The notes under the pieces are model-generated. The model saw only the letters and a program-made list of their open reading frames with translations, was not told the DNA's origin and searched no databases. The translations under genes were made by a program, and so were the position numbers. From Cyanobacteria bacterium RUI128 (GTDB lineage: Bacteria; Cyanobacteriota; Vampirovibrionia; Gastranaerophilales; Gastranaerophilaceae): a stretch of DNA of 18,976 bases. Location of the stretch: the NCBI GenBank assembly GCA_024695725.1, contig JAILHQ010000146.1, forward strand, positions 1 to 18,976. The letters run 5' to 3'. Positions 10,918-11,267 of the stretch are shown in pieces. Each line of letters starts with the position of its first letter. Within the stretch, counting starts at the first letter, position 1.

Positions 10918-10947
10918 AAAAAAGACGGACAAAAGTCCGTCTTTTTT
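10918..10947 (+). terminator. Terminator after the ART-like gene
   Basis: AAAAAAGACGGAC-AAAA-GTCCGTCTTTTTT. On the minus strand the same hairpin follows the repeated tRNA tail and would end a transcript from the tRNA at 11267. Confidence 0.92.
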
Positions 10948-11211
10948 ATTTGGGCCCGGAGGGGTTGTCTTGGATTTGCTCCACGCTCGCAGAGTGTCGT
11001 TTTCGGCACTTCGTACCTGTCAACTCCATCTGCTCGCTATCCGAATTTCGTACTGCTTACGCAGTGCTCAATACGTACTCAAATCCGCTCGAACCTATAC
11101 AAAACTCCGTTTTGTGGTTCTCACCCCTCCGATTTTAGGGAGGTATGCAAACTCACAAAAATAAAAAAGACGAACGAATGTTCGCCTTTTTTATTTGGGC
11201 CCGGAGGGGTT
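10941..11211 (-). mobile_element. Small tRNA-tail-bounded element behind the CAU tRNA
   Basis: A perfect 26-base repeat lies at 11186-11211 (tRNA 3' end and flank) and 10941-10966, 245 bases apart. Read in the tRNA's direction: tRNA tail, terminator (11192-11163), hairpin-rich insert, repeated tail, terminator. This is the order seen behind tRNA-Ser. The 37-base core at 11123-11087 matches the tRNA-Ser element at 35 of 37 bases, including both arms of its hairpin. The next hairpin (ACTGC-gtaa-GCAGT, 11065-11052) occupies the same place as GCAAC-gaa-GTTGC there but with different bases. Short open frames across the insert have no ribosome site and no protein character. The element cannot encode a recombinase. 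Confidence 0.62.
11163..11192 (-). terminator. Terminator directly after the CAU tRNA
   Basis: On the minus strand AAAAAGGCGAAC-ATTC-GTTCGTCTTTTTT with one G-U pair. Confidence 0.82.
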
Positions 11212-11267
11212 CGAACCCACGACCAAGGGATTATGAGTCCCCTGCTCTACCGCTGAGCTACAGGCCC
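11196..11267 (-). tRNA. tRNA with CAU anticodon (Ile2 or elongator Met)
   Basis: 72 nucleotides: acceptor GGGCCTG/CGGGCCC with discriminator A, D-arm GCTC...GAGC, anticodon stem GGGGA/TCCCT and loop CTCATAA. The CAT anticodon could be Met, or Ile2 once the C is modified to lysidine. The anticodon arm and following CTTGGTCG resemble bacterial tRNA-Ile2, but this does not settle it; initiator Met is unlikely. The T-stem GTGGG/CCCTC has one T-T mismatch (second pair). CCA is not encoded. Confidence 0.9.

Follow-up and report, generated by a model that had tools for sequence, protein, structure and literature searches.

Elements resembling the tRNA-linked repeats of Escherichia coli downstream of tRNA genes in Gastranaerophilaceae

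Introduction

The tRNA-linked repeats (TLRs) of E. coli were first described in 1978, and 22 of them are counted at ten loci (Egan and Landy 1978; Rudd 1999, both as cited in PMC8144298). According to the same report, each TLR contains 18-19 bp that equal the 3' end of the tRNA or rRNA gene upstream of it, and no function has been agreed on since the first description (PMC8144298). RrA, RrB and RrF, the TLRs behind 5S genes, lie between the dual rrn terminators, are transcribed via read-through of the first terminator (T1) and bind Hfq and CsrA; the authors suggested that RNase E recognises the repeat, and reported a modest effect of rrA/B/F deletion on known CsrA-regulated phenotypes (PMC8144298). 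For the RtT RNA of tyrT/tyrV (Rfam RF00391), a tandem GA has been noted (PMC7657543; PMC8250186).

In the literature that we searched, with most subscription papers outside its reach, no TLR was found outside Enterobacterales, and we claim no priority. Small hairpin modules in a mosaic arrangement, with copies elsewhere in the genome, are also known from the REP and BIME palindromic elements and their RAYT transposases.

Here, we compare these systems with a stretch of 18,976 nucleotides from Cyanobacteria bacterium RUI128 (the window), in which tRNA-Ser(GCT) on one strand and a CAU tRNA on the other are each followed by an insert and an exact copy of their own 3' tail. The organism belongs to a family of the Gastranaerophilales that we take to inhabit gut or rumen and to be distant from E. 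coli.

Results

Both window elements lie directly downstream of a tRNA gene on the same strand (Table 1). The order of hairpin, insert, tail copy and second hairpin behind both tRNAs, as claimed by the original prediction, was confirmed, with exact tails of 21 and 26 bases, and so was, by eye count, the identity of 35/37 in a 37-base insert core. The likeness of the inserts held for this core, while the remainder of each proved to be a different module; in addition, the insert contains antisense and sense pieces of the host T-arm, which the prediction had not mentioned. The pattern GAACCACAAAACGGAGTTTTGTNTAGGTTCGA, with up to three mismatches allowed, matched twice in the window, free of mismatches, at the two P2 cores; in 200 dinucleotide shuffles the mean was 0.

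Table 1. Features of the two tRNA loci in the window.
Feature	Position	Strand	Basis
tRNA-Ser(GCT), host of first element	6969..7058	+	ARAGORN; Rfam RF00005 58.9 bits
T1, terminator-like hairpin separating tRNA-Ser and element	7064..7104	+	18-pair stem, then T run
TLR-type element at tRNA-Ser, model R1 match	7114..7293	+	55.7 bits, E 3.5e-13; fold z -2.95
P1 5' strand GGAT, Ser element	7119..7122	+	pairs with ATCC of tail copy (R1 alignment)
P2 core, Ser element, GAACC-hairpin-GGTTC + GA	7125..7156	+	host T-stem antisense/sense copies flank small hairpin
P3 filler module, Ser element, F3 kind	7157..7281	+	sequence; motif statistics of relatives' copies
Internal loop of Ser filler, GAGCAGA / GTTTAATGCGA	7165-7171 / 7252-7262	+	sequence
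tRNA-Ser 3' tail copy, 21 nt exact, AATCCCACCTTCTCCGAATTT	7282..7302	+	repeat search
T2, second terminator-like hairpin, Ser locus	7303..7330	+	hairpin scan
Second unit, Ser locus, type 2: antisense T-arm ATTCGGGCGGGATTCGAACCC	7340..7438	+	repeats; counterpart in G001
Hairpin of second unit, around GATACTTAATC	7379-7417	+	
Degenerate tail of second unit, CACCTTCTCTGA	7423-7434	+	
Third unit, Ser locus, truncated, ends AATCCGATACAATCCCACCTT	7441..7526	+	repeat D2; counterpart in G001
CAU tRNA (called tRNA-Met), host of element in the original prediction	11195..11268	-	ARAGORN; Rfam 69.3 bits
T1 hairpin, CAU-tRNA locus	11159..11196	-	inverted repeat I3
TLR-type element at CAU tRNA, model R1 match	10955..11131	-	53.0 bits, E 1.7e-12; fold z -5.53
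P1 5' strand CGGAGGGGT, CAU-tRNA element	11123..11131	-	complement of ACCCCTCCG in tail copy
P2 core, CAU-tRNA element	11089..11120	-	pattern search
P3 filler, F1 kind, GCGGATTTG...CAAATCCAAGAC, CAU-tRNA element	10967..11088	-	sequence
Tail and trailer-start copy of CAU tRNA, 26 nt exact	10941..10966	-	repeat search
T2 hairpin, CAU-tRNA locus, overlapping repeat end	10915..10950	-	inverted repeat I2

The Ser locus consists of one intact and two decayed units, and its T1 and T2 hairpins are dissimilar. Behind the CAU tRNA, which we presume from GACTCATAATC...CTTGGTCG flanking the anticodon to be perhaps a tRNA-Ile2 (lysidine CAU) and not tRNA-Met, the tail copy has its original at 11186-11211 (- strand AACCCCTCCGGGCCCAAATAAAAAAG), and this 26-base repeat sits within a direct repeat of 55 nt and 89% identity that includes the terminator-like hairpin. 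The hairpin scanner left the hairpins of this locus unflagged on the - strand; they are visible as inverted repeats. Their order is swapped between the window (10915-11196) and its nearest relative, genome G001 (L001 1421-1701), an arrangement that the loss of different units from a longer array would be expected to produce. The single-sequence fold of the CAU-tRNA element contains a 9-bp P1 as well as P2, and the minimum free energy fold of the Ser element forms no P1.

Side-by-side comparison of the inserts revealed a common plan, here called type 1. The tRNA is followed, after a terminator in some cases, by GGAY-GA-GAACC, an antisense copy of part of the host T-arm, then by a small hairpin and by GGTTCGA, a sense copy of part of the host T-stem; a filler and the host tail, spanning T-loop to discriminator or CCA, complete the unit. 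The host-derived parts vary with the tRNA, and the small hairpins and fillers are common to different tRNAs. The elements fold into a three-way junction, two arms of which contain host sequence: in one, the antisense T-arm piece pairs with the tail copy, and the other includes the sense T-stem copy. In type 2, the hairpin module is a different one (around GATACTTAATC or GACATTTAGTC) and the tail has other boundaries. Among elements starting closer than 45 nt to the tRNA, 4 of 16 had a T1, as did 18 of 19 starting at 45-120 nt; three elements lying deeper than 120 nt were excluded from this tally. No open reading frame of at least 80 aa was detected inside the elements, which are about 180 bp long, and so no integrase gene lies within them.

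Both strands of the T-arm are matched to the host. Of 10 positions, the antisense arm paired at 6.95 with the tail copy of its own element and at 5.93 with the tails of other hosts, and the observed sum was reached in none of 5000 permutations (38 elements, 16 motif elements without a recognisable tail copy having been dropped). This anchored test was devised after a cruder longest-run measure had given a weak result, its observed sum being reached in 191 of 20000 permutations. For the sense T-stem piece, agreement with the own host amounted to 208 across 27 loci, the maximum of 20000 permutations being 184.

For the fold, an alignment was built from 22 of the 38 elements, all taken from the 25 with a length of at most 160 nt and each with a tail copy behind a tRNA; of its 25 predicted pairs, 13 were changed on both sides. 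All aligned elements were first found by a pattern fixing GAYGMGAAC and GTTC, so that part of the invariance of the outer P2 pairs and of GAY in P1 stems from this choice of elements. When one pair was added manually, 95.2% of cells were paired, and the covariation score was 0.419 compared with 0.126 in shuffles (0/500) and at most 0.106 in slid controls. Pairs changed on both sides numbered 14 in this hand-extended structure versus 10.1 in shuffles (2/500), and further pair types showed no excess (29 versus 27.7; 178/500). In 39 distinct copies of the filler, the internal loop of GAGCAGA against GTTTAAYGCGA is conserved and the stems covary on both sides, with 166/273 outer pairs (permutation maximum 128) and 151/195 inner pairs (maximum 132).

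The covariance model derived from these elements, R1, finds both window elements, neither of which was in its training set; its sole other match in the window is a 47-position piece (7.5 bits, E 1.3). Over the phylum, R1 matched 117 of 292 genomes, 116 in the family and one outside it (G040); eight of the 117 had supplied training elements, and with at most ten candidates scored per genome the per-genome counts are lower bounds. Collecting the copies with their adjacent tRNAs, as the original prediction had proposed, gave 27 of 30 R1 loci behind a same-strand tRNA, of 18 kinds, and none behind a tRNA on the opposite strand; two of the remaining three start near a contig edge. After removal of the six loci with training elements, 21 of 24 lay behind a same-strand tRNA. 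A pattern search (GATGAGAACN{8,28}GTTCGA) gave matches in 107 of the 241 genomes of the order, with none in the 22 outside the family; its reversed control matched 27 genomes. For 34 of 36 motif matches in 30 loci, a tRNA lay within 700 nt upstream, same-strand tRNAs being the only ones considered. These many independent cases support the predicted family of elements whose tails are matched to each host tRNA.

A 28-nt piece of the core, with up to three mismatches, was found in 2 of 58 relatives. G001 has two copies, one at the orthologous CAU tRNA and one at tRNA-Ser(CGA), and the sister genome G002 has a single copy behind tRNA-Gln; a pattern scan of genome contigs gave one locus, in RUG11040. 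Tail copies were sought directly, by a 12-nt anchor ending at the discriminator base (up to one mismatch, within 600 nt), in G001, G002, G083 from another genus, and G041 and G036, each from another family. They were present behind 18/38, 13/35, 6/35 and 2/42 tRNA genes in the first four, the two positives of G041 being one array counted for two neighbouring tRNAs, and behind 0/26 in G036; dropped for having less than 300 nt downstream were 2/40, 3/38, 4/39, 0/42 and 4/30 tRNA genes. Control scans gave 1/176 upstream and 0/176 on each of two reverse strands, 1/528 in total. A stricter 14-nt scan retained 14/37 genes in G001 and 10/33 in G002, with no control match. Together, G001 and G002 carry copies behind 22 anticodon kinds. 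Of the 29 anticodons single in both, seven have copies in both genomes, eight in G001 only, four in G002 only and ten in neither, where absence means no copy by the 12-nt scan (Gly-TCC of G002, for example, retains a GAYGAGAAC motif). As many tRNA genes have no copy and 12 of these 29 anticodons differ between the sisters, no single copy is essential.

Hosts are not restricted to tRNAs. A 5S gene was present in five of ten genomes searched; behind that of G070 (L284), copies of its own tail lie 162 and 324 nt downstream, behind that of G001 (L286) an 11-nt tail copy, missed by the 12-nt scan, was recognised by eye after a reversed filler, and the 5S genes of the other three genomes had no tail copies. 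In G005, a contig starts with a 5S-like end, which scores below the Rfam gathering score and is followed by two units of 225 bp. Tail copies lacking the core, which the original prediction took as a pointer to simple tRNA-end duplication, do exist, behind Phe, Arg-ACG, Arg-TCT, Pro and one 5S gene, but they carry type-2 modules, another hairpin-rich insert, and are thus not simple duplications.

One to several units occur per locus, as at the window Ser tRNA and tRNA-Met of G083. The tandem arrays have units of 178 and 184 bp, those of 178 bp at tRNA-Met of G083 being identical by eye, and a tail closes the arrays whether or not a partial unit is present. Among 60 loci with near-exact tail copies, including E. 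coli tyrV, the likeness continued past the tail into trailer and terminator in 31 (above the 95th percentile of other-locus pairs), as it would in a tandem repeat; the window CAU tRNA belongs to these 31 and the window Ser tRNA to the other 29. In the latter, the tail is kept between unlike trailers, which may reflect either selective maintenance of the tail or copying of nothing but the tail; as loci were chosen for near-exact tails, the kept tails do not decide between the two.

In E. coli K-12, tail copies were found at 4 of the 27 tRNA genes checked (tyrV, proK, lysV and serX; 12 stretches), in a sample of loci that was not exhaustive. Like the new elements, the E. coli TLRs lie behind tRNA and 5S genes with an optional terminator between, and at tyrV, proK and serX antisense and sense T-arm pieces surround the same junction; lysV shows a variant form, in which the antisense T-arm is fuller and the GATGAGAA motif is missing. 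The order at proK is terminator, GAGGATGAGAACCTCC...GGAGGTTCGA, insert, AATCCTC... tail and terminator, and at serX the tail copies lie at 181, 362 and 543 nt. By our computation, the spacing is 156-181 bp at lysV, proK, tyrV and serX, and 150 bp is reported for rrB (PMC8144298). RtT RNA, built as GGGGAAGGAT-GA-GAA...AGGTTCGA-insert-AATCCTTCCCCCACCACCA and repeated at 178 bp, has the same junction layout with P1 formed with the tail copy; it differs in its insert sequence, and the window elements stay below the Rfam gathering score. The order T1, element, tail copy, T2 in the window is that of RrA, RrB and RrF between their dual rrn terminators (PMC8144298). The two groups differ in number, 22 at ten loci in E. 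coli versus 18/38 and 13/35 tRNA genes in the two richest genomes surveyed, and in the fillers of the new elements (GAGCAGA / GTTTAAYGCGA loop, F1 and type 2), which are unlike those of E. coli.

On 13 E. coli stretches, among them one of rrnB with its 5S gene (another, L324, misses the 5S gene), R1 at E <= 5 found three serX units and one tyrV unit only, with weak scores of 16.4, 16.4, 15.2 and 12.0 bits and rough E-values of 0.009, 0.009 and 0.019 for serX and 0.13 for tyrV; proK and lysV were missed. When the filters were switched off and the tyrV stretch (L140) was searched alone, the three RtT units ranked first to third (rough E 0.008-0.048), followed by a fourth match at 0.16. RF00391 had no match in the window, nor at E <= 5 in eight loci, five of them with tRNA-linked type-1 elements. 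Assignment to a known Rfam family was rejected, since tRNA alone reached the gathering score in the window and other matches in the eight loci fell below it. The layout is thus the same in the E. coli TLRs and the new elements and suggests common descent, which the weak R1 scores, the missed proK and lysV and the lack of an RF00391 match do not establish.

Discussion

The window elements are best read as tRNA-linked repeats with the same build as those at E. coli tyrV, proK and serX. We consider it probable that such elements are small RNAs of the TLR type in which the tail copy serves as a portable 3'-processing site, with unit numbers varying by tandem duplication. The transcription, processing and unequal exchange of units that this involves are inferred from the genomes. 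The antisense piece of the host T-arm would pair with the 3' tail copy as an outer helix, and the unit would be co-transcribed with the tRNA, by reading through T1 or, in units that lack T1, directly. Cuts at the 3' end of the tRNA and after the tail copy would then release it, the latter because the paired tail, a T-stem-like helix, would resemble the tRNA's own 3' end to the processing enzyme and be cut in the same way. Exchange between tails would multiply or shrink the units and would leave arrays ending in a tail, as those observed do, and the filler modules would be interchangeable among units. This proposal explains the tail, the host-matched antisense arm, the fixed orientation, the stable RNA hosts and the optional terminators, and the alternatives discussed below are partly compatible with it.

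A neutral origin, in which the 3' ends of stable RNA genes are duplicated in tandem and maintained by recombination, without function, seems unlikely to us. The high turnover between sister genomes (12 of 29 single-copy anticodons), the array with units identical by eye and the partial last units would all fit, as does the modest effect of deleting rrA/B/F on known CsrA-regulated phenotypes (PMC8144298), but the family's elements covary in P1, P3 and the inner stems, which speaks for a fold under selection. That the tail is kept with unlike trailers in 29 of 60 loci points the same way, if weakly, since the loci were chosen by near-exact tails.

Rather improbable is a movement of the hairpin modules behind stable RNA genes by a Y1 or other transposase, in the manner of REP or MITE elements and with duplication of a long target, although modules could move in this way within a TLR. 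The new elements share with REP and BIME their small hairpin modules, mosaic arrangement and copies elsewhere in the genome. Fillers of the GAGCAGA/GTTTAAYGCGA type also occur in loci where ARAGORN detected no tRNA (L045, L047, L061 and L062), and perhaps represent a separate interspersed hairpin family; an F1 filler sits inside the tail copy, not at the T-loop, at Glu of G002 (L131) and Lys of G001 (L069), with an apparent 2-bp duplication by eye. Y1 transposase genes lie near 5S-linked fillers in two genomes: in G005 (L272 1-1240), a RAYT-like one and GTAG-type palindromes accompany the fillers behind the 5S-like end, and in G001 (contig C30) a 5S gene, a filler and a Y1 gene share one small contig. 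Nevertheless, G083, G224 and G215, with at least ten R1 matches each, yielded no Y1_Tnp, and a filler was present at two of nine Y1 loci (BLAST, three module queries), for which reasons REP-type mobility was rejected as the whole story; moreover, it leaves unexplained the host-specific antisense arm and the fixed orientation behind stable RNA genes, in which the new elements differ from REP and BIME.

Very unlikely are non-autonomous integrative elements that a tyrosine recombinase inserts at the T-loop, the tail copy being the second attachment site: an exact tail copy starting at the same T-loop point in most type-1 loci, a fixed orientation, presence differing between the sisters and Phage_integrase genes in 5/5 genomes would fit, yet one circle cannot supply the right tail for 22 anticodon kinds, the repeat enters the trailer in 31/60 loci, some 5S rRNA genes, hosts that lack a T-arm, show the same arrangement downstream, integrase genes are equally present in G036 without tail copies, and three limited searches gave no viral or phage copy. 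Among these, one strict pattern for one kind of P2 sequence had no match in viral contigs, and neither one window element nor the E. coli repeat, used as BLAST queries, had a match in phage records. The capture of tRNA ends by a tyrosine recombinase, put forward in the original prediction, is accordingly unsupported; of the resident recombinase that it suggested looking for, Phage_integrase genes are candidates, but these are equally present in G036. A reading of the tail copies as attachment sites of mini-islands was rejected on the absence of viral and phage copies in these limited searches, the integrases of copy-free G036 and the extension of the repeat into the trailer.

Returning to the TLR reading, CsrA was found in one of six family genomes tested, which makes a CsrA sponge, as suggested by the CsrA-binding RrA, RrB and RrF, unlikely as a general role; in the five genomes where CsrA went undetected, the one proposed role of TLRs can be set aside. 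The elements would form a second TLR lineage, occupying up to about half of the tRNA genes in the richest genome surveyed, with copies in more than 100 genomes; beyond what E. coli alone offers, it provides covariation that defines the fold and natural pairs of presence and absence between sister species. New with respect to the literature searched are this lineage and the scale, along with the fold supported by covariation and the host match on both T-arm strands. More tentatively, TLRs may be a general class of portable RNA modules for 3' processing, able to join any stable RNA gene through a copy of its 3' end. The one junction fold that E. coli has in common with this distant family would then go back to deep descent or to transfer, and at each new tRNA some copying mechanism would supply the element with both strands of the host T-arm; we regard this wider view as possible, though on balance doubtful. 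For annotation, tail copies of this kind can be mistaken for attachment sites of genomic islands.

Two further observations concern the protein-coding content of the window. An open reading frame at 9564-10910 shows a weak ART-PolyVal (ADP-ribosyltransferase) match (E 0.00025), under the Pfam cut-off, and another, of 1761 aa, extends over 13662-18947 on the - strand.
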